Assembly: GCF_004366035.1 (NCBI RefSeq)
Contig: NZ_SOEE01000004.1
Span: 382,007 to 446,006, forward strand
Direction: 5' to 3'
Source: Cytobacillus oceanisediminis
GTDB taxonomy: Bacteria; Bacillota; Bacilli; Bacillales; Cytobacillaceae
Length of the DNA: 64,000 bases
Part shown: one piece after another, positions 1,509 to 58,176 of the stretch
Position numbering within the stretch: the first letter of the stretch is position 1
Layout: every line of letters starts with the position of its first letter
Translations under genes and position numbers: made by a program
The notes under the pieces: model-generated
What the model was told of the DNA's origin: nothing
Database searches by the model: none
Seen by the model: the letters and a program-made list of their open reading frames with translations, nothing else

Positions 1509-1556
1509 TTTTGCCCCGTTAGGTTAATCTTATTGACCTAACGGGGCAAAATTTCT
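1509..1556 (+). terminator. rho-independent terminator of ktrAB
   Basis: A 16-bp perfect inverted repeat (TTTTGCCCCGTTAGGT with its complement, arms 1509-1524 and 1536-1551) lies 30 bases after the ktrB stop and runs into a T-rich tail. Confidence 0.9.
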
Positions 1557-1604
1557 GTTATAAGTTTGTGAATTAATGATTTAAACAATCAGGTGATAAA
1601 TCCA

Positions 1605-1690
1605 AGATTAGCTGCTGATAAGGCAGCCTCTTTCTTCTTCGACAAACGGGGCAGGTTTGTTGAACAAGGAATGATATACTTTTGTTAAAA
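1605..1690 (+). repeat. intergenic repeat, copy A (hairpin plus ACAAACGGGGCAGG block)
   Basis: The stretch contains TTAGCTGCTGATAAGGCAGC (hairpin), then ACAAACGGGGCAGGTTTGTTGAACAAG, then an AT-rich promoter-like segment. The same order of elements recurs at 2350-2450, and a weaker hairpin-only version occurs near 2727-2760. Each copy separates two small genes. By eye this is a dispersed terminator-plus-promoter type repeat; its biological role is not evident from the sequence. Confidence 0.55.
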
Positions 1691-1710
1691 AGTAATTAGA
1701 GGTGGAAAAA

Positions 1711-2315
1711 ATGGAGCCATTTTGGGAAAGGGCTTATTTGGATGATGAAGTTGAGACATTCGGAAAGCCAAGCGAAGAAGTAATAAATGTAAGCAAACAT
1801 TTACATAGAAATTCAAAAATACTTGACCTGGGTTGTGGGGATGGAAGGCATGCAATCTATTTGGCAAGAATGGGACACATAGTGGATGCAATAGATATAT
1901 CAAAAGCAGGGATAGCCAAAGTTAACCGTATTAAAGAAAAACTCAATTTAACGAATTTAAGAGGATTTGTAAGAGATGCAACAAACTACTCGAGTTTAAC
2001 TGTACATATGATTTAATTATCTCACATGGACTATTTCATTTTATTGAAAGGAATAATTGGTCAAATATTATTCATCGTATGAAAAAAGGAACTCAAAAAG
2101 GTGGATACAACATTGTTACAGTTTTTACGGATGAGGTTGAAATACCAGAAGATTAAAAGCCCTATGTTAAAGGCATATTTCATGAGGGAGAATTAAAAAA
2201 GCTGTACTTTGATTGGACAATAGAAATGTACCGTTCTTATCAGTTCGAGGATGAACATGAAAATAATATTAGACACTGTCATGCAGTAAATAAGATTGTT
2301 GCAAGAAAGTTATAA
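1711..2315 (+). pseudogene. class I SAM-dependent methyltransferase (TehB-like), frameshifted and interrupted
   Basis: The 5' part reads as a Rossmann-fold methyltransferase: EPFWERAYLDDE at the start, then motif I LDLGCGDGRHAIYLA around residues 33-47 and the acidic VDAIDIS strand end. The frame breaks near 1992, where the product would end at VHMI. Reading on in the next frame recovers the family's continuation (YDLIISHGLFHF, then a KKGTQKGGYNIVTVF strand) down to TAA at 2313. This second part also carries an in-frame TAA at 2154. Two independent lesions make a working enzyme unlikely. The intact length of about 200 residues would fit tellurite-resistance-type methyltransferases. The start ATG has an AGAGGTGG box 6 bases upstream. 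The gene sits in a decayed accessory stretch between repeat copies A and B. Confidence 0.8.
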
Positions 2316-2349
2316 GTAGAACAATGGAGAAAAATTTGTTCTTATTCAA

Positions 2350-2450
2350 CTATTAAGATATTAGCTGCCAATAGGCGGCTATTTTTCTTACTTAACAAAC
2401 GGGCAGGTTTCTTCAACAAGAGTTGTGTTTTTGTGGTAAAATATAGGTAA
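2350..2450 (+). repeat. intergenic repeat, copy B
   Basis: Second copy of the element at 1605-1690: TTAGCTGCCAATAGGCGGC hairpin, CTTAACAAACGGGCAGGTTT, TTCAACAAGAG, then a promoter-like AT-rich tail leading to the small membrane gene at 2459. The order of elements and the spacing match copy A. Confidence 0.55.
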
Positions 2451-2458
2451 TTCTTTAA

Positions 2459-2674
2459 TTGAGAAAACCTGCTATTGATAATAAGGAGTTGATAAAAATT
2501 CCTAAGATTGCAATGAAACGATGTTTTGCATTAAGACTAGTGGGGTTTATGATTCTCCTGGCATTTGTTATTTTTAATGGTTTAGAAACAAAAAGTTTTA
2601 TCGCATTGTTGATAACACCTTTATTTTTCATAGGAATGCCTTGGTACAGTTATTTTAGAAAAGAACAAAGGTAA
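2459..2674 (+). CDS. small membrane protein of unknown function
   Basis: I do not recognise this protein. The longest frame gives 71 residues with two hydrophobic segments (GFMILLAFVIFNGL and FIALLITPLFFIGMPW) separated by a short polar turn and ending in a charged tail, so a two-helix membrane protein is expected. The start is uncertain. The TTG at 2459 has a weak upstream site, while a strong AAGGAGTTGAT box at 2483-2493 points to a start inside the frame (ATT at 2498 or ATG at 2513, the latter leaving 54 residues). The gene lies alone between repeat copies, so context gives no functional clue. Confidence 0.5.
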   Translation: MRKPAIDNKELIKIPKIAMKRCFALRLVGFMILLAFVIFNGLETKSFIALLITPLFFIGMPWYSYFRKEQR

Positions 2675-3225
2675 ATTTATTATTGGTTATGGTTTTTGTC
2701 TTATAGATAACGAATAGCTTGCCTTTAATAAGGGTTGCTGCGGCAGCTCTTTTCCTTTTTACACTAACGGTACAGCTGTCTTGTATAAAAAACATTAAAA
2801 AAGTTCAAATTTGTGAAAAAATGCACTTAAACAATAGGGTGCTTTAGTTGAATAAGAAATCAAAATGATCACAAGCAATAGATGTTGACGAATTGTTGAC
2901 GAAAACGGTCAACAATGGTCCATTTTAAATCTAAAGGGACAAACTTCATTCCTTCTAAAGCCTTGATATGTAAGAAATTTTCCATAATAACTTTATTGCT
3001 TCCGTGACTGTTTGCTACTTTGACAGGGTAGAGGTCGCTGGATAATTATAAATGTCCAAAACAAGCAAAATTGGGCTATTAAATGATTAAAAAAATCGTT
3101 CCGACCCCAAACCGACCCCAAATTTAGATAATTAATTTTTATGAATAAACAAATTGAATAAAATAAAAAGCGCGAAACCCTTGATCTACAAAAAATTCGC
3201 GCTTTTCTTTAATAACGTCCCAGGC
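2675..3225. other. gene-free decayed stretch, probable element scar
   Basis: No credible reading frame is seen from 2675 to the mreBH gene end at 3944. This first part holds a weak hairpin (GCTGCGGCAGC at 2728), the first 145-bp repeat copy (2892-3041), the tandem phrase CCGACCCCAAACCGACCCCA at 3101-3120, and a perfect inverted repeat AAAAGCGCGAA/TTCGCGCTTTT near 3169-3212. Such a GCGCGAA hairpin next to a tRNA-end fragment resembles the edge of an integrated element that has lost its genes. Confidence 0.5.
2892..3041 (+). repeat. 145-bp imperfect direct repeat, copy 1, beginning with a hairpin
   Basis: The copy starts with ATTGTTGAC-GAAAACG-GTCAACAAT, a 9-bp stem with a 7-base loop, and ends with GTAGAGGTCGCTGG. 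It aligns over its whole length with 3363-3508 at roughly 80% identity by eye. The outermost base pair differs between copies but stays complementary (A-T here, G-C in copy 2). Confidence 0.75.
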
Positions 3226-46532: not shown

Positions 46533-46581
46533 CTTTACGGGGCTGATTGGGGTGCTGGTGCCCTCCACGGTCTTCAAAACC
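46533..46581 (+). repeat. right attachment repeat (attR) within the complete tRNA-Sec
   Basis: Identical to 40602-40650 over 49 bases. Confidence 0.9.
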
Positions 46582-46635
46582 GCTTGTGACCTGCGTGCCA
46601 GGTCAGCTGGGTTCGATTCCCAGGCGGTCCCGCCA
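46539..46635 (+). tRNA. selC: tRNA-Sec (anticodon TCA)
   Basis: A 97-base tRNA with the features of selenocysteine tRNA: anticodon loop CTTCAAA (anticodon TCA) on a CGGT/ACCG stem, a long variable arm TGACCTG-CGTGC-CAGGTCA, T-arm CTGGG-TTCGATT-CCCAG, an extended acceptor stem (GGGGCTG with CGGTCCC, two wobbles) and encoded GCCA. tRNA-Sec inserts selenocysteine at recoded UGA codons. Its 5' half and upstream DNA come from the island side, so its present promoter is not the one at 40564. Confidence 0.9.
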
Positions 46636-47598: not shown

Positions 47599-48093
47599 AT
47601 GGATAATAATGATATATTAATTCGATTGAGATATGCGTTAGAAATCAAAAATAGTGAAATGGCAGAGATCTTTAAACTTGGAGGAATAGAGGTGTCCGTA
47701 CCAGAGGTGGTAAAGATCCTCAAAAAGACAGATGATGAAGAAGAGAATGACAGCCAAATAAAATTAACAAATAGTATGTTAAATTCATTTTTGAATGGCT
47801 TCATAATTTATAAAAGAGGTAAACAAGAGCCAAAACCAGGTCAAAATAATACGCCAGAACCATCCATAGAAAATAATACAAATGTAAACAATATTCTTTT
47901 AAAGAAAACCAAAATCGCCTTGTCCTTAACAACAGAGGACATGATAGATGTATTCAAAAAAGCTGGATTAAACGTATCAAAAGGAGAACTCGGAGCTTTT
48001 TTAAGAAAAGAAGGACATAAAAATTATAAAGTATGCTTAGACAATTTTGCCAGAAACTTCTTAAAAGGACTAGCGATTAAATATAGGGGATAA
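47599..48093 (+). CDS. YehS-like DUF1456 protein
   Basis: A 164-residue protein made of two DUF1456 repeats. Repeat 1 has DILIRLRYALEIKNSEMAEIFKLGG and SFLNGFIIYKRG; repeat 2 has KTKIALSLTTEDMIDVFKKAG and NFLKGLAIKYRG. The pattern matches E. coli YehS and its Bacillus relatives; function unknown. AGGAGG precedes ATG. It lies just outside the tRNA-Sec region. Confidence 0.87.
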   Translation: MDNNDILIRLRYALEIKNSEMAEIFKLGGIEVSVPEVVKILKKTDDEEENDSQIKLTNSMLNSFLNGFIIYKRGKQEPKPGQNNTPEPSIENNTNVNNILLKKTKIALSLTTEDMIDVFKKAGLNVSKGELGAFLRKEGHKNYKVCLDNFARNFLKGLAIKYRG

Positions 48094-48224
48094 GGAAGAA
48101 AAGAATTCGTGTAAAAACATATAAATAGCCTATAAAGCAAAGCTGTCTGAGTTCATTAAAAAGTGAAATAGTTCATGAAATTAATTTATCTTCAGGAGTC
48201 ACATAAATGGACTCCTGCCCTAAA

Positions 48225-48264
48225 AACGAGCCTCAAAATTGATTGAGGAGGCTCGTATTTGGAT
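48225..48264 (+). terminator. terminator downstream of the DUF1456 gene
   Basis: ACGAGCCTCAA and TTGAGGAGGCTCGT form a hairpin followed by ATTTGG. Confidence 0.65.
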
Positions 48265-48269
48265 TATTG

Positions 48270-48326
48270 GTGTCTGACCCCGGCTGCGTTAAAACGTTAA
48301 TGCCTAAGGGGGCAGGCACCTTTTTT
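48270..48326. repeat. GGTGTCTGACCCC/GGGGGCAGGCACC hairpin element
   Basis: Long-range inverted repeat with T-run. Hairpins with this GGTGYCTGACCCC arm are dispersed in Bacillus genomes. It also terminates transcription from the left. Confidence 0.75.
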
Positions 48327-48429
48327 CATGATTTCAATTGTTTTAGTAAGATAAAAATTCTATGATAAAACCTTCAAAATTTTATTGCAAACTATTGGTT
48401 ATTATTGTGAGTAATAAGACATATATATT

Positions 48430-48529
48430 AGACAGGTTATTGTCTAGGGTAGAGATGCGGAGATTCCCTGTGATCAATAAATTGCATGACACTTCTTTGT
48501 GATGCAGTTATTGTTCATGGGTTTTTTTA
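48430..48529 (+). promoter_or_regulatory. leader RNA 1: GlpP-type antiterminator element and terminator, upstream of ugpB
   Basis: AGGG-TAGAGATGCGGAGATT-CCCT (48446-48469) forms a short stem with a conserved 16-base loop. The strand CCCTGTGATCAATAA (48466-48480) can instead pair with TTATTGTTCATGGG (48508-48521), followed by T7, an intrinsic terminator. The overlap makes the two structures exclusive. The loop recurs in leaders 2 and 3, and a GlpP-family gene lies in the locus. Confidence 0.82.
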
Positions 48530-48559
48530 TGAAAAAATGGATATTAAGGGGGAAATGGC

Positions 48560-49831
48560 ATGAAGGTTAAGTTTTTATCATTCGTTTTAGTTTTACTGGT
48601 TGTCCTTGCCGGATGCAGCAGTGACACTAAAGTGGAAGAAACGGCTGAGATTGATTTCTGGTTCCCGGTTGCGGTTGGCGGGGATGTAGCGAACATTGTT
48701 GATGGAATTGTAGAAGAATTCGAGAAAGAAAATCCTGATATCAAGGTCAATGCGAAATATGGCGGCAGTTATGCTGAAACTATGACTCAGGTGATGGCGT
48801 CAGCGCAGGGAGGGAATCCGCCTGAACTTGCTGTTTTATTCTCAATCGATCTTTTCACCTTACTTGAGAACGACCTGATCGAGGAAGTGACACCTTTGTT
48901 TGACGAAGAGTACTTAAATGATTTTTACGATGGATTCATGGCGAATTCTTCTATCGGGGATAAGGTATACAGCTTGCCATTCCAGCGCAGCACAATTGTC
49001 CTATACTACAACAAGGACGCATTCAAAGAGGCCGGACTGGATCCGGAAGCTCCACCTGAAAACTGGGATCAGCTGGTGGAATACGGTAAGAAGCTGACGA
49101 AAAATGGCGGTAAGGACCAATGGGGTCTTGAAATCCCGAGTACTGGATATCAATACTGGATGTTCCAGGCTTTAGCACTTCAGACTGAAGACAACATCAT
49201 GTCTGAAGATGGAAAGAAAGTGTATTTCAACGCACCTTACGCAAAAGGAGCGATGGATTACTGGTTGTCCCTTGGAAAAGAGCATAAGATCATGCCGGAG
49301 GGTGTCATTGAATGGGCGACAGTTCCTTCTGACTTCTTGAGCGGAAAAACAGCAATGATGTACCACACGACAGGTAATCTGACAAATGTGAAGAACAATG
49401 CAGACTTTGATTTCGGTGTATCATTCCTGCCGGCAAATAATCAGTATGGATCCCCGACTGGAGGAGGAAACATCTACTTGTTCAAAGATCTTCCCGAAGC
49501 TAACAAAGAAGCTGCGGTCAAGTTCATGAAATTTCTTACGGAACCTGAGCGTGTAGCACAGTGGTCTATCGATACAGGATATGTCGCCACTAGAGAATCT
49601 GCTTATGAAACGGACTTGTTGAAAAAGTATGTAGAGGAATTCCCGCCTGCACTTGTTGCCCGCGAGCAATTGGAATATGCGGATAGCGAATTGGCAACTT
49701 ACCAAAATGGTGAGGTGCAGAAAATTTTCAATGATCATATTCAATCGATCTTGACTGGCCAAAGCTCAGTTGACGAAGGATTGGAAAAAGCTCAGGAGAA
49801 AGCAGAAGAAGTGCTGAAGCCTTTTCAGTAA
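48560..49831 (+). CDS. ABC importer substrate-binding lipoprotein (UgpB-like)
   Basis: A 423-residue family 1 extracellular binding protein. Signal and lipobox: VLVLLVVLAGCSS with Cys at residue 19. The mature chain has EIDFWFPVAVGGDVANIVDGI, YGGSYAETMTQVMASAQGGNPPE near residue 65, LPFQRSTIVLYYNKDAFKEAG, and GGGNIYLFKD, as in UgpB-type receptors for sn-glycerol 3-phosphate or glycerophosphodiesters. GGGGG before ATG. It leads an operon with two permeases, an MBL hydrolase and, after a second leader, a HAD phosphatase. Regulation by GlpP-type antitermination supports a glycerol-phosphate-related ligand. Confidence 0.85.
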   Translation: MKVKFLSFVLVLLVVLAGCSSDTKVEETAEIDFWFPVAVGGDVANIVDGIVEEFEKENPDIKVNAKYGGSYAETMTQVMASAQGGNPPELAVLFSIDLFTLLENDLIEEVTPLFDEEYLNDFYDGFMANSSIGDKVYSLPFQRSTIVLYYNKDAFKEAGLDPEAPPENWDQLVEYGKKLTKNGGKDQWGLEIPSTGYQYWMFQALALQTEDNIMSEDGKKVYFNAPYAKGAMDYWLSLGKEHKIMPEGVIEWATVPSDFLSGKTAMMYHTTGNLTNVKNNADFDFGVSFLPANNQYGSPTGGGNIYLFKDLPEANKEAAVKFMKFLTEPERVAQWSIDTGYVATRESAYETDLLKKYVEEFPPALVAREQLEYADSELATYQNGEVQKIFNDHIQSILTGQSSVDEGLEKAQEKAEEVLKPFQ

Positions 49832-49926
49832 TAAAAGCTGCAGCAGTGGAGTGAATGGAGTGGAGCTCAGGTGAAAATATGCTGACTTGGGCTCCCTTTA
49901 TTCACAAGAAAGGTGGGTTAGATCTG

Positions 49927-50817
49927 ATGACAACGAAGCGAAGAAAATTCAGTTCCGGAACGAGGCACAATCTGTTCGCTTACGGATTACTGTTTCCTTC
50001 TTTCATTTTTTTAACTATGTTTACGTTTTACCCAACTCTCAAGTCGATCCAGTTAAGCTTCTACAGTGGTCCGATGACCCGGCTGCAGTTTTCCGGATTG
50101 GATCAGTATAAAGAAGTTTTAGCTGATGAGATATTCAGGAAGGTCATCCTGAATAACATCATCTTCATGATTGGGACAGTGCCAACGAGTTTGTTCCTGG
50201 CGATGTATCTTGCCATCTGGCTGAATAAAAAAATGGCCGGAAGCTCCTTGCTTAGGACATCGTTTTTCTACCCGACAATCATTCCGTTAATTGCGGTAGC
50301 GAATATTTGGCTTTTCATTTACACCCCTCAGTACGGACTGCTCGATAACTTCCTTCATTTGTTCGGGGCAGGGGACACGAACTGGCTGGGGAATCCCAAT
50401 ACAGTAATGATTGTAATGATTGTCATGATCATTTGGAAAGATGCTGGTTTTTATATGATTTTTTATTTAGCTGGTTTGCAAAATTTACCGAGAGATGTCT
50501 ATGAAGCGGCTGAGATCGAAGGGGCGAAACCGCTCCAGATGTTCCGTCATATCACGTTCCCGCTACTGATGCCGACGACGCTGTTCGTCATGATCGTGGC
50601 GATTACGAATTCATTCAAGAACGTCGACCACTTGTACATTATGACTAAGGGTGGACCGGATAATGCCAGCAATCTGCTGCTCTATCATATCTATGAAGCG
50701 GCATTTACGAACTGGGATCTTGGCAAAGCTGCCGTTCTGACCGTGATTTTGATTGTCATCATGCTGGGGATCACAGCATTCAACTATTTGTACCTTGATC
50801 GGAAAATCCATTATTAA
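49927..50817 (+). CDS. ABC importer permease (UgpA-like)
   Basis: A 296-residue MalF/UgpA-type permease with six helices and the EAA loop YEAAEIEGAKPLQMFRHITFP near residue 195, which contacts the ATPase. ATG 49927 follows AAAGGTGGG and gives the family length; the frame's 24-residue extension is not supported. No ATPase gene is present in the operon, so a shared MsmX/UgpC-type ATPase must energise it (inferred). Confidence 0.88.
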   Translation: MTTKRRKFSSGTRHNLFAYGLLFPSFIFLTMFTFYPTLKSIQLSFYSGPMTRLQFSGLDQYKEVLADEIFRKVILNNIIFMIGTVPTSLFLAMYLAIWLNKKMAGSSLLRTSFFYPTIIPLIAVANIWLFIYTPQYGLLDNFLHLFGAGDTNWLGNPNTVMIVMIVMIIWKDAGFYMIFYLAGLQNLPRDVYEAAEIEGAKPLQMFRHITFPLLMPTTLFVMIVAITNSFKNVDHLYIMTKGGPDNASNLLLYHIYEAAFTNWDLGKAAVLTVILIVIMLGITAFNYLYLDRKIHY

Positions 50818-50832
50818 GGAGGGTGAGAATCG

Positions 50833-51642
50833 ATGAAAAAACTGAACTATGGCATCATTATTGTTCTTGGGATCATTTCGTTTATCCCGCTGCTTTGGGT
50901 AATCATCACTTCTTTCTCTCCCGGGAATCAAGTGATCAATGGAGGTTTTCCGTTCTGGGTCTCAAACCCAACAGTTGAAAACTATGTGAAAGCGTGGGAG
51001 ACTGCACCATTTATCCAATACTACATCAATACGTTCGTCATCGTATTTGGCGTGCTGATAGTCCAGTTGTTCACGATTACGCTTGCAGCTTTTGCTTTTG
51101 CGCGGGTGAACTTCAAAGGAAAAAATGTACTGTTCATCTTGTTTTTGCTCCAGCTGATGATTCAGCCTGAAATTCTGTTGTTCCCGAACTACCAGGTTAT
51201 TAGCCAGCTTGGGCTCGTTAATACGAAGCTGGCCGTCATGATGCCGTATTGGGCATCAGCATTCGGGGTATTCCTGCTGCGCCAGACTTTTAAGCAGGTC
51301 CCGTATGATCTCGATGAAGCGTCGAGAATAGACGGCTGTAAATGGTATCAAACGCTGTGGCATGTATACATTCCATCAGCAAAACCGACATATATTGCGT
51401 TTGCGCTCGTGTCCGTCAGTCACCATTGGAGCAACTTCATGTGGCCGTTGATTATTACGGATTCTGTCGAGTCCCGGCCGTTGACCGTCGGACTTGCCTT
51501 GTTTGCGCAATCGTATGAAACGGGAGCACAATGGGGAATGGTCGCTGCAGGTACGGTAATGGTCATCATGCCATTGGTAGTTGCTTTCTTCATTTTCCAA
51601 AAACAATTCGTATCAAGCTTCATGCATTCAGGAATCAAATAG
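50833..51642 (+). CDS. ABC importer permease (UgpE-like)
   Basis: A 269-residue MalG/UgpE-type permease with six helices and the EAA loop LDEASRIDGCKWYQTLWHVYIP near residue 160. AAGGAGGGTGA precedes ATG. It lies 15 bases after ugpA and 11 bases before the MBL gene, so all are translationally close. Confidence 0.88.
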   Translation: MKKLNYGIIIVLGIISFIPLLWVIITSFSPGNQVINGGFPFWVSNPTVENYVKAWETAPFIQYYINTFVIVFGVLIVQLFTITLAAFAFARVNFKGKNVLFILFLLQLMIQPEILLFPNYQVISQLGLVNTKLAVMMPYWASAFGVFLLRQTFKQVPYDLDEASRIDGCKWYQTLWHVYIPSAKPTYIAFALVSVSHHWSNFMWPLIITDSVESRPLTVGLALFAQSYETGAQWGMVAAGTVMVIMPLVVAFFIFQKQFVSSFMHSGIK

Positions 51643-51653
51643 GTGGTGGTTAA

Positions 51654-52394
51654 ATGGATATTCATTTTTTGGGAACGGGAAGTGCCTATCCCGGTTCCAA
51701 TCGCGATAATACTTCAATTTGCTTTTCGAATGACGGTTATCATGTCCTGGTCGATGTCAGCGGCAATCCTTGCAGGAAACTGAAGCAGATGCAGATAGAC
51801 TTAAGTGAGCTCGATGCAGTGGTGTTCACCCATTTTCATATCGACCATATATATGGGTTGCCATCTTTGCTGTGGGGGATGTGGCTGGAAGACAGGAAAA
51901 AGCCTTTACGGATTTTTTGCGATTACCGTAATGAGAAAAAGCTTCACGAATGGCTGGCGACAATGGAGGCTGACAAGTGGCCGATCGCCTTTCCCATTGA
52001 GGTGGAAACATTTGATGGTGATCAGGAAGAGGAGCTGCTGTCAGGCGGGGAGATGACGTTTTCCTGTTTTAAAGCGCTTCATTCTGTTCCTACTGTTGGG
52101 CTGGAGGTACGATGCCCGGGTCGAGTAGTCGTTTATTCAAGTGATACGGAAATCAACGCACGAATCGGACAGTATGACCATATAGATATGTTAATTCATG
52201 AGGCGACATCTGCCCGTAAAGTGGCCGGTAACCACAGCAGTCTTTTTGAAGTGGTAGAGAAGTATGATTTGGATAAGATCGGTGAGATTGTGTTAGTCCA
52301 CTTGTCAGATAAAGAACCATATGAAGAAGAGGTGGCAAAGCTTAACAACTTGAAGGTCGTCATCGGTGAAGACATGATGACGAAAGCATTATAG
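51654..52394 (+). CDS. MBL-fold phosphodiesterase of the RNase Z/PhnP type
   Basis: A 246-residue metallo-beta-lactamase-fold protein with IHFLGTGSAYP at the start, the HxHxDH motif in VVFTHFHIDHIYGLP near residue 62, VVYSSDTEI with the metal-bridging Asp, and a final VLVHLS His. The layout resembles PhnP and RNase Z, which hydrolyse (cyclic) phosphodiesters. In an operon with a Ugp-like importer and a HAD phosphatase, a role in splitting an imported phosphodiester before dephosphorylation is plausible but inferred. AGGTGGTGG precedes ATG. Confidence 0.82.
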   Translation: MDIHFLGTGSAYPGSNRDNTSICFSNDGYHVLVDVSGNPCRKLKQMQIDLSELDAVVFTHFHIDHIYGLPSLLWGMWLEDRKKPLRIFCDYRNEKKLHEWLATMEADKWPIAFPIEVETFDGDQEEELLSGGEMTFSCFKALHSVPTVGLEVRCPGRVVVYSSDTEINARIGQYDHIDMLIHEATSARKVAGNHSSLFEVVEKYDLDKIGEIVLVHLSDKEPYEEEVAKLNNLKVVIGEDMMTKAL

Positions 52395-52402
52395 GTAAAT
52401 AG

Positions 52403-52492
52403 AAACAAGGATAGAGATGAGGAGATTCCTTGGGTTAGGCGGCATCCAATTATTAAATTGGAGGAATCGTCATGCTCAAGGAATTTTTTATT
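52403..52492 (+). promoter_or_regulatory. leader RNA 2: GlpP-type antiterminator element and terminator, upstream of the HAD gene
   Basis: CAAGG-ATAGAGATGAGGAGATT-CCTTG (52406-52432) forms a 5-bp stem. ATTCCTTG (52425-52432) can instead pair with CAAGGAAT (52477-52484), followed by T5, around an inner TCCAATT/AATTGGA hairpin. The stem bases differ from leader 1 while the loop is kept. Confidence 0.82.
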
Positions 52493-52555
52493 GAGTCTAA
52501 CGTGCAGTAAGACACCAACTGATCGAAGCTTCACTTTATTGGATGGAGGAGACCA

Positions 52556-53335
52556 ATGAGAAACTTGAAAGGATATATTTTTGACTTGGATGGCACCGTA
52601 TATCTTGGGAAGCAATTGATTGAAGGAGCAGATACAGTGGTGAATTCCCTTTTCAATGAGGGGAAGAAAGTGCTATTCCTTACAAATAAGACGATTGAAT
52701 CGCGTCAGCGTTATGTGGAAAAGTTGCGCCGCTTCAAGATCAATGCGAGACTGGAGAACATTTTGAATCCGACACTTACCTTGATTGAATATTTGCGGGA
52801 ACATCATCCTAATGCCGCATTGTATGTGATTGGAGAGCAGCCAATCAAAGATGAACTGGCACTTGCCGGATTTCGGGAAGGGCTGACACCAGCAGAGATC
52901 GACGTCGTTGTGCTGTCATGGGATCGAGATTTTCACTACGATCATTTGAATTTTGCCTATCAGTCCGTAAAGCTTGGTGCAAAGATGATTGCAACCAATC
53001 CTGACAGAACCTGTCCCATGGAGGTCGGCGATGTTCCGGACTGTGCCGGAATGATCGGTGCGGTGGAAGCCGTTGCCGGGAAAACGATTGATGTACAGAT
53101 CGGAAAGCCATCCATTCTAACGATTGAAACAGCATTGGGAATTTTGCAGCTTAAGCCGGATGAATGTGTGATGATCGGTGATCGCCTCGAAACGGATATC
53201 CGGATGGGAATCGAAGCTGGAATGAAAACAGTACTTGTACTTAGTGGGATTACTACCAAGGAGGACTTGAGGGTTTCTCCGTGGAAGCCAGATTATGTCT
53301 TACCCTCGGTGAGTGGATTGCTATCGTTAAAATGA
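52556..53335 (+). CDS. HAD-IIA (NagD/AraL-type) phosphatase
   Basis: A 259-residue HAD superfamily subclass IIA phosphatase. Motif I FDLDGTVYLG near residue 10, motif II LTNKT near residue 42, motif III Lys in QIGKPSILT, and motif IV MIGDRLETDIRMG near residue 205 are all present. Relatives dephosphorylate small sugar phosphates, glycerol phosphates or phosphoglycolate. It is controlled by its own attenuator (leader 2) within the importer operon. ATGGAGGAG precedes ATG. Confidence 0.87.
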   Translation: MRNLKGYIFDLDGTVYLGKQLIEGADTVVNSLFNEGKKVLFLTNKTIESRQRYVEKLRRFKINARLENILNPTLTLIEYLREHHPNAALYVIGEQPIKDELALAGFREGLTPAEIDVVVLSWDRDFHYDHLNFAYQSVKLGAKMIATNPDRTCPMEVGDVPDCAGMIGAVEAVAGKTIDVQIGKPSILTIETALGILQLKPDECVMIGDRLETDIRMGIEAGMKTVLVLSGITTKEDLRVSPWKPDYVLPSVSGLLSLK

Positions 53336-53337
53336 TA

Positions 53338-53380
53338 TTAAAAAAGGAAGCGGTAATAGAATCCCGCTCCCTTTTTTGTG
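53338..53380. terminator. terminator between the HAD gene and the lamin-tail gene
   Basis: AAAAAAGGAAGCGG-TAATAGAATC-CCGCTCCCTTTTTT, usable from both sides. Confidence 0.8.
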
Positions 53381-55303
53381 TTATTCGATTTCTTTATCAT
53401 CCATCATCAATTTCTTCATATCAATTTTGAGCATCCTGTCCATCGGATAGGTGGTCGTATAGCGGTATTTATCTGCTCCGGACTCAAACACGACGTAGAG
53501 TTCTTTTTGTACTTCTACGATTCCTTCTGGCATTGGTATTGCTTCGATACTTTGGCGTGGTTTAGCAGAGTGCCCATCAAGGAACCATAGGGGTACTTCT
53601 TTTCCTTCAACAGTGGCATAGGAATGAGGGTCTTCTTTTAATGGGTATTCATAACGATATAGTACACTGTCGTTTGCTCTTCCGTAGGATGTACTTAGCT
53701 TGATGCCATTCCTTGCTGCTTTTTGTATAATGGCGCCTTGGACTTTTCCAGTTGTTGAAAGGACGTAATCCGGCACAGCATTGTGCTCAGGTGAGCCATC
53801 CCAATGGGCTCCAGCAAGCAAGTCGTTGTTTCGTTCCAAATTGAAGCCGATCATCCAGGCGTAGTGCATTTCTCCATCCCTGTTTTCAATATGGTGAGAT
53901 GGATCGGTCGGATAGGAGCTTGCCTCATAGAATTCTCCGACCCAGAGAATGCCCTCATCATAAACTGTGTAAGCCGCCTCGACCGGTAATGGTATTTGTT
54001 TTGTGAACTGGATTTCTCCGTTATTTTCCGCTTCTTCCAGATCACTTAAATTGAAGCTGAACAAGTAATTCTCGGAAGCTACCCAGCCATGATCGCGACT
54101 GACGGTAACGCCGCCAGCGTGACCAGTATACGGTGTGCCATCTGTGTTGTAAAGGACAACGGATTTTAACAGTTTGCCTGTCGTGCGATCTGTTACGGTA
54201 ATGGTACCAGGCCGAATTCCATCATCGACATAGCTTATGGTAAGCAGCCAGTCTTTTTTCTTATAATAGGTTAATCCTTGGGGGACCAGTCCTTGCGCTA
54301 GGCCAGCAATCACCGGTCCTTCCGAACTGATATCCCATAGACTTTGATAGGCAGGATCTTTTTGATGTTTCCATCGTTCAAGCTGAGTAATGATTTGGTG
54401 TTCTGGTATTACTTGTACAGGGGCCGATTTTTCCGATACATTCCCTGATGTATCCTCTGCGCTTACTTGTAATGAGTACGTTTGGTTGCCGATCAACATA
54501 TAAAGGGGAAATTCTGTTTGTGATGCATCTACTGAATATTCGAAATGGCCATCTTTGTAAATATGATAACGGAATAGATCTGTTTCAGAAGATGCATCCC
54601 AGGTCAATGTAGCATTTCCACTGCCAGCAGCCGCCTCCAGGTTGACCGGTGGATGCGGTGCTTCTTTATCTATTACTGGACGAGCTGGGGCTTGATCTTC
54701 TACCAGCCATCCCGGAGTCGGGTTTTGGTTTATTGATAATTTTTCCATTTTCCGTGTATTGCCCTTAGGATAGGTAAAGGTGATTGTTTTCTTTAGAGAA
54801 ACGTCCTCTGCTGCATAATCCGCTCTGACGACTTCATGGCCATCGGGGTCATAAACGGTCAGTGTGTTACCACCATTGACTAGTCCGCCGATGTTGCCAA
54901 GGATGATTGTATCCTCTTCTTTTAAATACTTACTTTTGTAGGAAAAGAAATAGTTATAGTTAAATGCATCCAGTAAAATAGGGCTGATTGATGCGGTTCT
55001 TGTCCAGACCACTACTGTTTCCCAAGGCTTCAAAATGTATGCTTCCTCGATTTCTTCGTCCCAATTACGGGAAGCGAATCGATATCCTTTCAGGTCGATT
55101 GGATCCGGGCTATTGTTATAAAGCTCAAAGTATTCAAATGCATCATAACCTGCGTAGTTATCGGTATTAGGAATCAATTCCGTGATCAACAGGTTGGGTA
55201 TGCTTGCATCTTCTGCCTTGGCGTTTTGTGCTGGAATTAATAACATTCCGATTCCTAAAATGAGAATAAAAGCAGCTAGCCAGCTAATTGATTTAATTTT
55301 CAA
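53381..55303 (-). CDS. secreted lamin-tail-domain / fibronectin III / beta-propeller-like protein
   Basis: A 640-residue exported protein. A signal peptide (WLAAFILILGIGMLL, cleavage after AKA near residue 30) is followed by a lamin-tail domain (LLITELIPNTDNYAGYDAFEYFELYNNS near residue 38 onward, described as the ITELIPN and FEYFELYNN strands), an FnIII domain (APHPPVNLEAAAGSGNATLTW to YSLQVSAEDTSGN, residues about 215-300) and a C-terminal domain of 300 residues with repeated beta strands (GHAGGVTVSRDHGWVASENYLF) suggestive of a propeller. Lamin-tail domains often accompany extracellular nucleases or phosphodiesterases. No catalytic motif is seen. Leader 3 places it under the same antiterminator as the importer. 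Confidence 0.78.
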   Translation of the reverse strand: MKIKSISWLAAFILILGIGMLLIPAQNAKAEDASIPNLLITELIPNTDNYAGYDAFEYFELYNNSPDPIDLKGYRFASRNWDEEIEEAYILKPWETVVVWTRTASISPILLDAFNYNYFFSYKSKYLKEEDTIILGNIGGLVNGGNTLTVYDPDGHEVVRADYAAEDVSLKKTITFTYPKGNTRKMEKLSINQNPTPGWLVEDQAPARPVIDKEAPHPPVNLEAAAGSGNATLTWDASSETDLFRYHIYKDGHFEYSVDASQTEFPLYMLIGNQTYSLQVSAEDTSGNVSEKSAPVQVIPEHQIITQLERWKHQKDPAYQSLWDISSEGPVIAGLAQGLVPQGLTYYKKKDWLLTISYVDDGIRPGTITVTDRTTGKLLKSVVLYNTDGTPYTGHAGGVTVSRDHGWVASENYLFSFNLSDLEEAENNGEIQFTKQIPLPVEAAYTVYDEGILWVGEFYEASSYPTDPSHHIENRDGEMHYAWMIGFNLERNNDLLAGAHWDGSPEHNAVPDYVLSTTGKVQGAIIQKAARNGIKLSTSYGRANDSVLYRYEYPLKEDPHSYATVEGKEVPLWFLDGHSAKPRQSIEAIPMPEGIVEVQKELYVVFESGADKYRYTTTYPMDRMLKIDMKKLMMDDKEIE

Positions 55304-55334
55304 CCAACTTCCTCCTTTTAAAAATGTTTTTTAT

Positions 55335-55420
55335 GTAAAAATGAAAAGAACCCCATGACAACAGAATGTACGATCATCGTACACACAATTGGCACAGGGC
55401 TCTCTTCATCTCCACCCACT
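55335..55420 (-). promoter_or_regulatory. leader RNA 3: GlpP-type antiterminator element and terminator, upstream of the lamin-tail gene
   Basis: On the minus strand GGG-TGGAGATGAAGAGAG-CCC (55417-55397) mirrors the stem and loop of leaders 1 and 2. CCCTGTGCC continues into a long hairpin whose apex is TGTACGA-TGA-TCGTACA and whose far arm TTGTCATGGGGTTC ends in TTTT (55351-55343). The strand overlap again makes antiterminator and terminator exclusive. Confidence 0.75.
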
Positions 55421-55587
55421 ATTTTATTTCCTAATTTAATCATATGGGGGCTTTGGTGTGACAATGCATATTCGGCAGGATATTTAAGTATATTCTGAAT
55501 TATTAGAATAATACTTGATGTGGAGCAGCAAATGCTTTATAATTAATAGTAACGAAAATATACCCGGCTTGTAGGAAGAGCAAAAGA

Positions 55588-55672
55588 GATCACCTATGAA
55601 GCGAACACTATGATTTCCCCACTTTTAGTGGGGAGATTTAGCATTCGTTTCATGGCGTGGTCTCTTTTTATC
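55588..55672 (+). promoter_or_regulatory. structured leader with terminator-like end, upstream of mgtC-like gene
   Basis: AGAGATCACC pairs with GGCGTGGTCTCT, ATGAAGCGAA with TTCGTTTCAT, and CCCCAC with GTGGGG around TTTTA, giving a three-tiered hairpin followed by T5. It ends 19 bases before the mgtC start. It could be an attenuator or metal-responsive leader; no known riboswitch class was recognised. Confidence 0.6.
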
Positions 55673-55690
55673 GTGAAGGGAGTTGGTTGG

Positions 55691-56227
55691 ATGGCGGTTT
55701 ACATGGAGTATATGACTGAATTCTTCTGGCATTATGAGACTTATTTTCGGATTGTGGTCAGTGCTGTATTAGGATTTTTAATCGGATGGGACAGGACATC
55801 GAAAAATAAGCCGGCTGGTTTAAAAACGTATACGTATGTGTCGGTGGCATGTACACTGATTACGATTGTTTCGATCGAAAGCGCGGAGCTGCTAAGTCAG
55901 CCGGATAGCGGAAAAGTGATGGATCCTATGCGTCTGGCAGCTCAGATTGTATCAGGTCTGGGTTTCCTTGGTGCAGGTGTGATCTTGAAAGACGGGTTGA
56001 GAGTAAAGGGGCTGACTTCAGCTGCGATGATCTTTTACGCTGGGGGAGTCGGGATTGGAATTGGAGCAGGATTTTATACCATCGTCATCTTCGCAACGTT
56101 GGTTACATTCACCATTACAAAGATAGGAAACTACTTTGAAGAGAGGGAGATTACGAGAGTGCGTTTTCCAAGGTTTAAGAAAAAAAGAAAGACAGAAGAA
56201 GAAAATCAGGAAGAGGTTGGAACTTGA
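55691..56227 (+). CDS. MgtC/SapB-family membrane protein
   Basis: A 178-residue protein with four or five hydrophobic helices. Family motifs: RIVVSAVLGFLIGWDR near residue 22, LKTYTYVSVACTLIT, MRLAAQIVSGLGFLGAGVILKD and VKGLTSAAMIFYAGGVGI. MgtC proteins affect Mg2+ homeostasis or ATP synthase activity in some species. ATG 55691 follows AAGGGAG by 9 bases; the upstream frame runs through the leader hairpin and is not coding. Confidence 0.88.
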   Translation: MAVYMEYMTEFFWHYETYFRIVVSAVLGFLIGWDRTSKNKPAGLKTYTYVSVACTLITIVSIESAELLSQPDSGKVMDPMRLAAQIVSGLGFLGAGVILKDGLRVKGLTSAAMIFYAGGVGIGIGAGFYTIVIFATLVTFTITKIGNYFEEREITRVRFPRFKKKRKTEEENQEEVGT

Positions 56228-56230
56228 AAA

Positions 56231-56268
56231 GAGATAGAGCTCAACTCTTGTGAATTGAGCTCTATTTG
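56231..56268. terminator. bidirectional terminator between mgtC-like and glpP-like genes
   Basis: ATAGAGCTCAA-CTCTTGTGAA-TTGAGCTCTAT, between converging genes. Confidence 0.82.
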
Positions 56269-56269
56269 G

Positions 56270-56839
56270 TTAAAGATCCAGGTTCCAGAGCTTTGGATCA
56301 CCAGAGGAAATGGCGAGTGCACCGGCCCCTAATCCATTCAGAATGTCTTCCTTATGACTGATCAGGCCGCCAGCGATGATCGGCAGCGCTGTCATTGTCG
56401 TCAGTTTATCAATAACAGATGGCATAAGACCAGGAAGAACTTCGATTGCATCCGGCCTACAATTATGTGCGATATCGATACCCTTGACAAGAGCATTGCG
56501 GTCAATAAGAAAAAGGCGCTGGATCGTCATTAGGCCTTCTTCCTTTGCATATTTAATCAGGTTGCTCTTCGTTGTGATGATGCCGGCTGGCTTCCAGATT
56601 TCTGCTATGTATTTAATGGCACTCTTTGTGTTGGACAGTCCATCGATGAAATCAATATGGATGAAGGTAGTTTTGCCGGCTTGTTTTAGTTTTTTCAGGT
56701 ATCCATTCATCGTAATCAAATTTCCAGTAAGGATGAAGACGATGTTGGCTTTTGACCGGACTGCCTTTTCAAGGTCGTCTTCTTCCTTGATTGATGCAAT
56801 CACTTGTGATTGGACAATGTCAATAATATTTTGTTTCAT
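56270..56839 (-). CDS. GlpP-family glycerol-3-phosphate-responsive antiterminator
   Basis: A 189-residue TIM-barrel-type RNA-binding antiterminator of the GlpP family: FILTGNLITMNGYLKKLKQAGK, FIHIDFIDGLSNTKSAIKYI, PAGIITTKSNLIKYAKEEGLMTIQRLFLID, DAIEVLPGLMPSVIDKL and LPIIAGGLISHKEDI all follow B. subtilis GlpP, including the QRLFL and EVLPG motifs. GlpP binds leader RNA in the presence of glycerol 3-phosphate and prevents termination. Three leaders with a shared loop lie 1.4-8.4 kb away, so this is probably a dedicated paralogue for the local regulon. ATG start; the main glpFKD genes are not in the window. Confidence 0.88.
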   Translation of the reverse strand: MKQNIIDIVQSQVIASIKEEDDLEKAVRSKANIVFILTGNLITMNGYLKKLKQAGKTTFIHIDFIDGLSNTKSAIKYIAEIWKPAGIITTKSNLIKYAKEEGLMTIQRLFLIDRNALVKGIDIAHNCRPDAIEVLPGLMPSVIDKLTTMTALPIIAGGLISHKEDILNGLGAGALAISSGDPKLWNLDL

Positions 56840-57207
56840 CTGCTATGCTCCTTCAATAGTCTGAATATTCTATATTATAGCATAAATTTGAACTGGTTAG
56901 TTACTTTTGCAGTGGGTGATTAACGTATCGTTAATTAATTTATTCATCCAGGGCAAGAATAAAATAACTGCAAACTATCGTAGTTTATAAGGAATATAAA
57001 GATATGATTTGACAATTATAGAGTGAAATCTTTCCCTTTAAGGTTTTTTTAGTTAAACAGCAATTAAGGAGTAAACTCACCAAATCTTATGTATTGTGAC
57101 ATATATAGAATACAGTAGAGTGCAGAATGGAAGGAGTTGAGTTGACCTAGAGTTAGTACGTCAATGATTAAGAAAGGCACTACTGATCTCAAGAATACTT
57201 TTTCTGC
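56840..57207. other. intergenic region with a palindrome upstream of the glpP-like gene
   Basis: No gene seen. ATTAACG-TAT-CGTTAAT at 56919-56935 is a perfect 7-bp-arm palindrome about 80 bases upstream of the glpP-like start and could be an operator. Confidence 0.45.
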
Positions 57208-58176
57208 TTATCTCTCATTTTCACTATATAAATTAACCACACCTTCAGCCATCCCCCTAACACTTTTCCTAAGCGAAACAGGCCTTACAATCTTAATTTG
57301 ATTCCCAAACCCAAGTATATACTCTCTAGCCTCTTGTTCAGTATCAAAGCAAAGACTTGCCGGAATCCATCCATCATGCTTAGGGCTATCCAGGTGTATA
57401 ACTTGTACAAATCTCCCAGTAAAATTAATACGCTGAATAATAGTTGGAGCCATCTCCACTTCTACCTCAAACCTAGGCAGGCTGCTAATAAATTTTTGCT
57501 TCGATTCCTGCCAATAGCCAGCGAGATCAAAGTCATTCGGCCTGCTGAAATTCTCTTTAAGCAGTTTTGCATCCACTATTCTTGAAACACGATAGCTTTT
57601 TATCTTCTCATCAGAAGCAGCTATAAGATACCAGATGTTCCCTTTAGCTACCAGTCCTAAAGGCTCAACAATTCTTTCACTCGTTTGTTTACCGGCCTTT
57701 TCGTATTGAATCTGAAGTTTTTTCTCCTCCCAAACGGCCTGCTGTACTATTCCAAATGACTTCATTTCCCGTGGTGTTTGTCTCCAAGTGCCGGTGTCAA
57801 TATGAATCCGGTTGGAAATGTCTTTAACATCATCTTTCATTGGAGCGGGAATCGCTGCAAGGAGTTTCTGGCGTGCTTCTTTCCAATCATCGCTTATTCC
57901 TAGATCCGCAAGGTGCTGGAAAGAAGGGGAGAGAAGCAGTGTTTTAATTTCATCTGCTTTTAACCCGGTAAGATTTGTTCTGTATTTCTCAAGCAGTCTC
58001 CATCCGCCAAATTTTCCGCGTTCAGCGAGGACTGGAATGCCTGCAGCGCTTAAGGCTTCCATATCCCGGTGTATGGTGCGTTCTGTTACCTCCAATTCTT
58101 TTGCTAATTCCCTTGTGGTCATTCTTTCGTTATTTTGAAGCAATAATAATATAGAAATGAGTCTGTCAGCCCGCAT
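57208..58176 (-). CDS. YafY-type HTH/WYL-domain transcriptional regulator
   Basis: A 322-residue regulator with an N-terminal HTH_11 (RLISILLLLQNNERMTTRELAKELEVTERTIHRDMEAL, with recognition helix TERTIHRDM) and a WYL domain in the middle (VEPLGLVAKGNIWYLIAAS near residue 170), the presumed ligand-sensing SH3-like fold, then a WCX-type C-terminus. It is divergent from an SDR gene, which it probably regulates. Confidence 0.87.
   Translation of the reverse strand: MRADRLISILLLLQNNERMTTRELAKELEVTERTIHRDMEALSAAGIPVLAERGKFGGWRLLEKYRTNLTGLKADEIKTLLLSPSFQHLADLGISDDWKEARQKLLAAIPAPMKDDVKDISNRIHIDTGTWRQTPREMKSFGIVQQAVWEEKKLQIQYEKAGKQTSERIVEPLGLVAKGNIWYLIAASDEKIKSYRVSRIVDAKLLKENFSRPNDFDLAGYWQESKQKFISSLPRFEVEVEMAPTIIQRINFTGRFVQVIHLDSPKHDGWIPASLCFDTEQEAREYILGFGNQIKIVRPVSLRKSVRGMAEGVVNLYSENER

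Follow-up and report, generated by a model that had tools for sequence, protein, structure and literature searches.

The genome of Cytobacillus oceanisediminis encodes two proteins of the GlpP family (PF04309), and the second of these, here called GlpP2, is encoded close to a Ugp-like importer operon, which raises the question of which RNAs such a second antiterminator protein would act upon. The locus was analysed in a window of 64,000 nucleotides (nt) of contig NZ_SOEE01000004.1 (positions 382,007 to 446,006, forward strand), this whole stretch being referred to as the window. An earlier note on this DNA had proposed a GlpP-type circuit with three leader RNAs and a GlpP paralogue of its own. 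Four leaders of this type are present in the window, preceding the ugpB-like operon, a HAD phosphatase gene within this operon, a gene coding for a secreted lamin-tail domain (LTD) protein and an mgtC-like gene, and a GlpP-family, glycerol-3-phosphate-responsive antitermination circuit likely operates at this locus. GlpP2 is probably the regulator acting on the window leaders.

Leader RNAs in the window

The four leaders, each with a short closing stem (P1), are as follows:

48446..48528, plus strand: GlpP-type leader of the ugpB-like operon; P1 AGGG (48446-48449) / CCCT (48466-48469), loop 13-mer 48451-48463, terminator 48466-48521, U-tract 48522-48528
52406..52489, plus strand: internal leader before the HAD gene; P1 CAAGGA (52406-52411) / TCCTTG (52427-52432), loop 13-mer 52413-52425, terminator to about 52486, U-tract 52484-52489
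55335..55417, minus strand: leader of the LTD gene; P1 GGG (55417-55415) / CCC (55399-55397), plus a wobble, loop 13-mer 55413-55401, terminator GAGAGCCC paired with GGGGUUCUUUU
55572..55668, plus strand: fourth leader, before the mgtC-like gene; P1 TAGG (55572-55575) / CCTA (55593-55596), loop 13-mer AGAGCAAAAGAGA (55577-55589), terminator to 55668

All four share the same layout, with a 13-nt loop RGAGNNNNRGAGA, P1 and an overlapping intrinsic terminator. The terminator incorporates the 3' strand of P1 in its 5' arm, and its U-rich end pairs with the second loop GAGA, which makes P1 and the terminator mutually exclusive. The three leaders of the earlier note were recovered at the positions it gave, folding as terminators whose 5' arm includes the P1 3' strand, and the terminator folds of the ugpB, HAD and LTD leaders are more stable than those of shuffled sequences (z -3.0, -5.1 and -6.3, respectively). 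The count of three local targets has to be raised to four, as a looser scan revealed a further leader, upstream of the mgtC-like gene (55691), which was seen in relatives and then in the window. It is conserved upstream of MgtC in the relatives' loci L034, L037-L046 and L063, and the leader type of the ugpB-like operon is likewise found upstream of UgpB in relatives. Between P1 of the HAD leader and the stop codon of the preceding metallo-beta-lactamase (MBL)-fold hydrolase gene there are just 11 nt, and this leader must therefore gate transcripts which originate upstream of or within the MBL gene. No promoter is claimed, since sigma-70-like promoters were no more frequent than in shuffles (21 matches against a shuffle mean of 17.4).

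Specificity and distribution of the leader element

The loop taken alone is unspecific. With at most one mismatch allowed, the genome contains 143 matches to the pattern GGAGATGNNGAGA and 53 to the same pattern read backwards, and the 13-mer alone was dropped as a leader criterion on account of this background. A combined scan for the loop, P1 and an overlapping terminator was made over 660,179 bases, comprising the window, the glp locus of the same genome (L003) and 30 loci of relatives chosen for a protein similar to the window GlpP. This yielded 53 matches, four of them within the window, as compared to two in the reversed sequences. A chance likeness of Shine-Dalgarno-like GGAGA stretches which happen to be followed by terminators would be in keeping with the high 13-mer background and with the 20 of 40 weaker-match regions described below that lack a leader before a recognised gene, but is hardly credible given the reversed control and the recurrence of the element before the same genes across genera.

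The loop and layout of the window leaders recur upstream of the canonical glpF and glpD in this genome and of its glpT, located 11 kb beyond the window. Among the relatives, the element is found upstream of glpF, glpD, glpK, glpT, GDPD, ugp-like permease, ugpB, HAD, LTD and mgtC genes, as well as before genes coding for an ABC binding protein, an MFS protein, a GlpA-like oxidoreductase and a ROK protein. As it precedes the canonical glpF, glpD and glpT genes and the glycerol-phosphate genes of relatives, the element is considered to be a GlpP target, and these comparisons suggest a general target of the GlpP family rather than one peculiar to the window paralogue.

When Rfam 15 was searched at the gathering score, tRNA-Sec was the only match in the window and no family was found for the leaders. 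With E-values up to 1, the region 48000-57600 gave a single match, to SNORD15 (20.8/75 bits, E 0.4), at a position overlapping the start of the HAD leader; this was taken as chance. The 19 leaders used to train a model of the element (R1) include all four from the window together with those of the genome's own glpF and glpD, and the E-values of these six are thus given by construction; the training excluded the genome's own glpT leader but took in that of a relative. Matches to R1 at E up to 0.01 occur in 118 of 249 genomes of the order. This number is an overcount, since 20 of the 40 regions inspected for weaker matches have a leader upstream of a recognised gene, at the match site in 19 cases, and the other 20 lack one. 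For the stronger matches (loci L115-L143), a leader precedes a recognised gene in 27 of 29. In total, 176 candidate leaders were reduced to 112 after the removal of repeated sequences, 98 of which have a recognised gene.

Twenty-four genomes lack a GlpP over the cut-off (20 without any match, four with a weak one), and four of these have an R1 match. Of the four R1 matches in three of these genomes (G048 being left out), three lack the loop-plus-terminator combination and the fourth (L165) is a weak hairpin (-17 kcal/mol) with a P1 score of 5.9 and no recognised gene. Leaders in genomes devoid of GlpP, which the earlier note had named as a finding that would speak against it, were thus not seen where this could be checked. 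Terminator-bearing leaders are common and the GlpP-less genomes are covered in part, which leaves some room for ordinary attenuators or a metabolite riboswitch working without GlpP. Such an origin is nevertheless very improbable in view of the GlpP-less genomes examined, in which no leader was confirmed, the lack of an Rfam family at the gathering score and the occurrence of the same loop before glpF, glpD and glpT.

Outside the order, 11 R1 matches at E up to 5e-4, excluding those of the genome itself, were inspected by eye, and a terminator follows the loop in six of these and is lacking in five. Two of the six leaders (L255 and L256) derive from one genus and are nearly identical. The P1 stems of the six leaders outside the class comprise four to six pairs, for example TGTGGT/ACCACA and TAGGAC/GTCCTA, although these leaders were retrieved with R1 and are hence biased towards P1. 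In L256 (about 1510-3031), a GlpP-type leader precedes a GlpP2-like gene, which is followed by a gene coding for a UgpA-like permease. This arrangement suggests that the link between GlpP2 and ugp-type import is old, and GlpP2-like proteins may regulate their own synthesis. In L253, also outside the class, a leader with the P1 stem GGGGT/ACCCC is located upstream of a 477-amino acid (aa) open reading frame.

Conservation of the P1 stem

Pairing in P1 was evaluated in 59 leaders with a recognised gene, drawn from the protein-selected loci, the window and the glp locus of the same genome. These were chosen by loop and terminator and not by P1, although the three leaders first picked for their stems are among them. 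A P1 score of at least 8 is reached by 53 of the 59, while over 500 rounds a mean of 20 (maximum 29) reached this score when the 3' side was taken from the leader of another gene, and a mean of eight (maximum 18) when the 5' side was shuffled. In a fixed ungapped register of 53 distinct leaders, 64.5% of the cells are paired, compared to 51.7% in shuffles, and the covariation is 0.328 against 0.151, with none of 500 shuffles reaching 0.328. By these comparisons, it is the pairing of P1 and not its letters that is conserved through compensatory changes, as the earlier note had read from its three copies.

Several observations weigh against an antiterminator hairpin held by a GlpP. The P1 stem is weak when taken alone, with 146, 16 and 61 of 200 shuffles of the short ugpB, HAD and LTD regions, respectively, folding equally well or better. 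It is also weak next to the terminator; the isolated LTD region and that of the genome's own glpD favour other folds, and P1 of the latter leader is restricted to GG/CC (2 bp). Furthermore, partners slid by +2 or +3 columns covary to a similarly high extent (0.295 and 0.330), which is explained at least in part by the different register of the mgtC leaders, and the pairing statistics are inflated by kinship among the sequences. A weak isolated P1 would fit a hairpin that is held by a protein, and would fit a chance stem equally.

Such considerations lend some substance to an improbable alternative, in which P1 never forms and the seeming stem is incidental, the GAGANNNNGAGA repeat being recognised by GlpP in single-stranded RNA. 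Aside from the weak P1, the other folds of the LTD and glpD regions and the 2-bp stem of the latter, the terminators pair the GAGA of the loop with their U-rich end, so that masking of the repeat would suffice. The 5' strand of P1 is, however, dispensable for the terminator, yet tracks the 3' strand over different genes and genera, which argues for a stem that forms.

GlpP2, its clade and its targets

The regulator encoded in the window is:

56270..56839, minus strand: GlpP paralogue (GlpP2), 189 aa; PF04309, 4.8e-64

The GlpP-family gene that the earlier note had located near the leaders is borne out by this profile match, which passes the curated PF04309 cut-off with 215.4 bits against 27; matches of about 20 bits were not counted as GlpP. 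It is one of two PF04309 genes in the genome, and its product shares 38% identity over 165 residues with the glpF-linked GlpP. A tree was derived from 117 GlpP genes of the fetched loci, 109 of which were retained as rows after eight shorter than 150 aa or identical to others were dropped. The canonical GlpP proteins (61 rows), mostly encoded beside glpF, glpK or glpD, fall on one side of a branch with support of 100/97, while GlpP2 lies across this branch. The relatives of GlpP2 are encoded next to HAD, LTD, mgtC, MBL, ugp-like or GDPD genes. Twenty-five positions show conservation of 95% or more and carry the same residue in both groups (61 canonical and 40 paralogue rows, leaving out eight divergent rows of the 109), and the core of GlpP is therefore considered to be kept in the paralogue. 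The proposal of a GlpP-type system with a paralogue distinct from the glpFKD-linked one is supported by this placement. As a circuit belonging to the paralogue it stands in part, as GlpP2 does fall outside the canonical clade, but the RNA is the general GlpP element that also precedes the genome's own glpF, glpD and glpT.

A GlpP with 93% identity to that of the window is encoded in L037, where the gene order is as in the window. Divergent PF04309 genes with similar scores against the canonical and window GlpP occur in L109, L244, L248 and L249. In L163 (G033:C1:64001-72500) the glpP match is broken by stop codons, and the adjacent glpF and glpD leaders keep the loop, P1 and terminator.

The C-terminal domain of the LTD protein is found in ten of the 249 genomes sampled from the order, and all ten encode a GlpP2-type gene and have a leader before the LTD gene. 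Among 30 GlpP2 loci, a leader precedes a recognised gene in the fetched flanks of 19, while none was found in the flanks of the other 11, even with a relaxed motif, one of these loci (L036) ending at a contig edge. In G234, leaders occur before mgtC, permease and ROK genes, yet the only GlpP encoded belongs to the canonical clade. Co-occurrence with the paralogue, which the earlier note had put forward as a check, is seen for the LTD domain and fails in G234.

At the two R positions of the loop, all 24 leaders of glpF, glpK and glpT have G..G, whereas all 44 leaders of ugpB, HAD, LTD and mgtC contain an A. Those of glpD are divided, with G..G in 18 of 24 and an A in six, and three of the latter occur in genomes (G026, G182 and G163) where the canonical GlpP is the only one or lies next to glpD. 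A strict code of loop letters was rejected on the basis of these A-containing glpD leaders, and the letters hint at insulation between the GlpP paralogues.

Alternatively, the leaders may be GlpP antiterminators on which the canonical GlpP or both proteins act, GlpP2 being redundant or having other targets. The leaders of G234, the A-containing glpD leaders and the 11 GlpP2 loci without a leader all accord with this explanation, which is rather unlikely. It sits less well with the adjacency of GlpP2-type genes to these targets in several genera, with the presence of GlpP2 in all ten LTD-domain genomes and with the separation of the loops of the glpF/glpK/glpT leaders from those of the ugpB, HAD, LTD and mgtC leaders. 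GlpP2 is thus retained as the more probable regulator. That it forms an insulated second circuit, in which the loop letters keep the two GlpPs apart and the regulon comprises surface glycerol-phosphate scavenging, the secreted LTD protein and two antiterminators in series, is a tentative proposal, given a little less than an even chance.

Gene products and proposed circuit

The remaining genes of the locus are:

48560..49831, plus strand: UgpB-like solute-binding lipoprotein; SBP_bac_8, 1e-52; top PDB match E. coli UgpB 4aq4, 1.9e-42
49927..50817, plus strand: UgpA-like permease, by profile matches
50833..51642, plus strand: UgpE-like permease, by profile matches
51654..52394, plus strand: MBL-fold hydrolase, RNase Z/PhnP/Apyc1-like by weak matches
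52556..53335, plus strand: HAD-IIA phosphatase; HAD-IIA TIGR01460, 4.1e-39, above cut-off
53381..55303, minus strand: secreted LTD protein with a signal-like N-terminus (by eye), LTD, fn3-like part and conserved C-terminal domain
55691..56227, plus strand: MgtC-family membrane protein; PF02308, 1.1e-31

The importer proteins miss the NCBIfam equivalog cut-offs of UgpB (166.5/411 bits), UgpA (129.9/335) and UgpE (112.1/297), although these are the best-scoring models. Such sub-cut-off scores do not establish the substrate of the importer. The PDB matches of the HAD protein include the glycerol-3-phosphate phosphatases 7po7 and 4i9f, with other HAD-IIA proteins outscoring both. No Pfam family was found for the conserved C-terminal domain of the LTD protein in a profile search. 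The structure model of this domain is of low confidence (mean pLDDT 54) and its Foldseek matches are weak, with TM-scores up to ~0.33, mostly to beta-propellers, and the C-terminus is perhaps a beta-propeller. The LTD protein encoded by relatives (L037-L042, L044-L046 and L063) is longer, with a length read as about 990-1040 aa, and has an additional LTD/fn3-like part preceding the conserved C-terminal domain. A tRNA-Sec gene is located at 46539-46635 (plus strand) of the window and a SelA gene on another contig of the same genome, and selenoproteins may therefore be synthesised.

Antitermination by GlpP is itself already known, and published GlpP acts with glycerol 3-phosphate, according to passages of PMC9604022 and PMC7430163. 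Glycerol 3-phosphate is taken as the inducer here on the basis of this published work. The leaders, P1 pairing, terminator overlap, target genes and paralogue clade, all arrived at by comparison, suggest a circuit whose ligand, binding, readthrough and acting GlpP we infer. When inducer is lacking, the ugpB, HAD, LTD and mgtC transcripts would stop at their intrinsic terminators. A GlpP-family protein bound to glycerol 3-phosphate, most likely the neighbouring GlpP2, would hold the P1 hairpin, which would present the 13-nt loop with its two GAG(A) repeats. The P1 3' strand and the second GAGA would thereby be kept from the terminator, resulting in readthrough. Within the operon, a first switch of this kind would precede the importer genes and a second, in series with it, would follow directly after the MBL gene and gate the phosphatase. 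The encoded proteins may serve to take up a glycerol phosphate or diester and to dephosphorylate or cleave it, and may be active at the cell surface. For this pathway, comprising import, cleavage and dephosphorylation of glycerol phosphates and a secreted surface protein, which we infer, the degradation of teichoic acid by GlpQ and PhoD in B. subtilis, as outlined in passages of PMC11488536, served as the model.

Comparison with known antitermination systems

The antiterminator hairpin of the LicT/SacY systems overlaps the terminator, TRAP targets purine-rich GAG repeats, and the ugp genes of E. coli are controlled by the Pho system. In B. subtilis, a GlpP site and a conditional terminator are situated in the 5' untranslated region of the target genes, as stated in passages of PMC9604022. 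The window system resembles this GlpP, which acts on the glpD, glpFK and glpT(Q) leaders, in its protein family, its glycerol-phosphate targets and the combination of site and terminator. It differs in that the paralogue lies outside the glpFKD-linked clade, that an importer operon, HAD, LTD and mgtC genes are targeted, and that the operon has a second, internal switch. As with LicT (passages of PMC7430163), an RNA hairpin would be stabilised by a protein, but GlpP2 matches PF04309 only, with no RNA-binding CAT or PRD domain found in a profile search, and the loop has two GAG(A) repeats. HutP, which binds NAG clusters according to the same source, likewise targets purine-rich repeats; unlike HutP and TRAP, the window leaders have two repeats in one hairpin loop and the protein family is unrelated. 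The UgpB/A/E-like proteins recall the Ugp system of E. coli, from which the window operon differs in that no ATPase gene was seen in it, in its linked MBL and HAD enzymes and in its control by antitermination.

The published passages of PMC9604022 and PMC7430163 name the terminator, the binding site or 'the antiterminator' without giving a structure. In the literature searched, no account was found of a GlpP paralogue or its regulon, which is in line with the novelty the earlier note had supposed, nor of the series arrangement or an explicit model of P1 and loop, although papers of the 1990s on the glpD leader may describe the stem.

The occurrence of a second GlpP beside four RNA switches suggests that C. 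oceanisediminis controls glycerol-phosphate scavenging separately, and supplies a testable RNA target for a little-studied regulator. The compact RNA model, consisting of P1 and the double-GAGA loop, is unmatched in Rfam 15, extends outside the class and predicts new targets, and short RNAs of this kind could make the binding mode of GlpP and the insulation of its paralogues testable. Through these leaders, a secreted LTD protein, an MBL hydrolase and mgtC-like genes would be tied to glycerol-phosphate metabolism.

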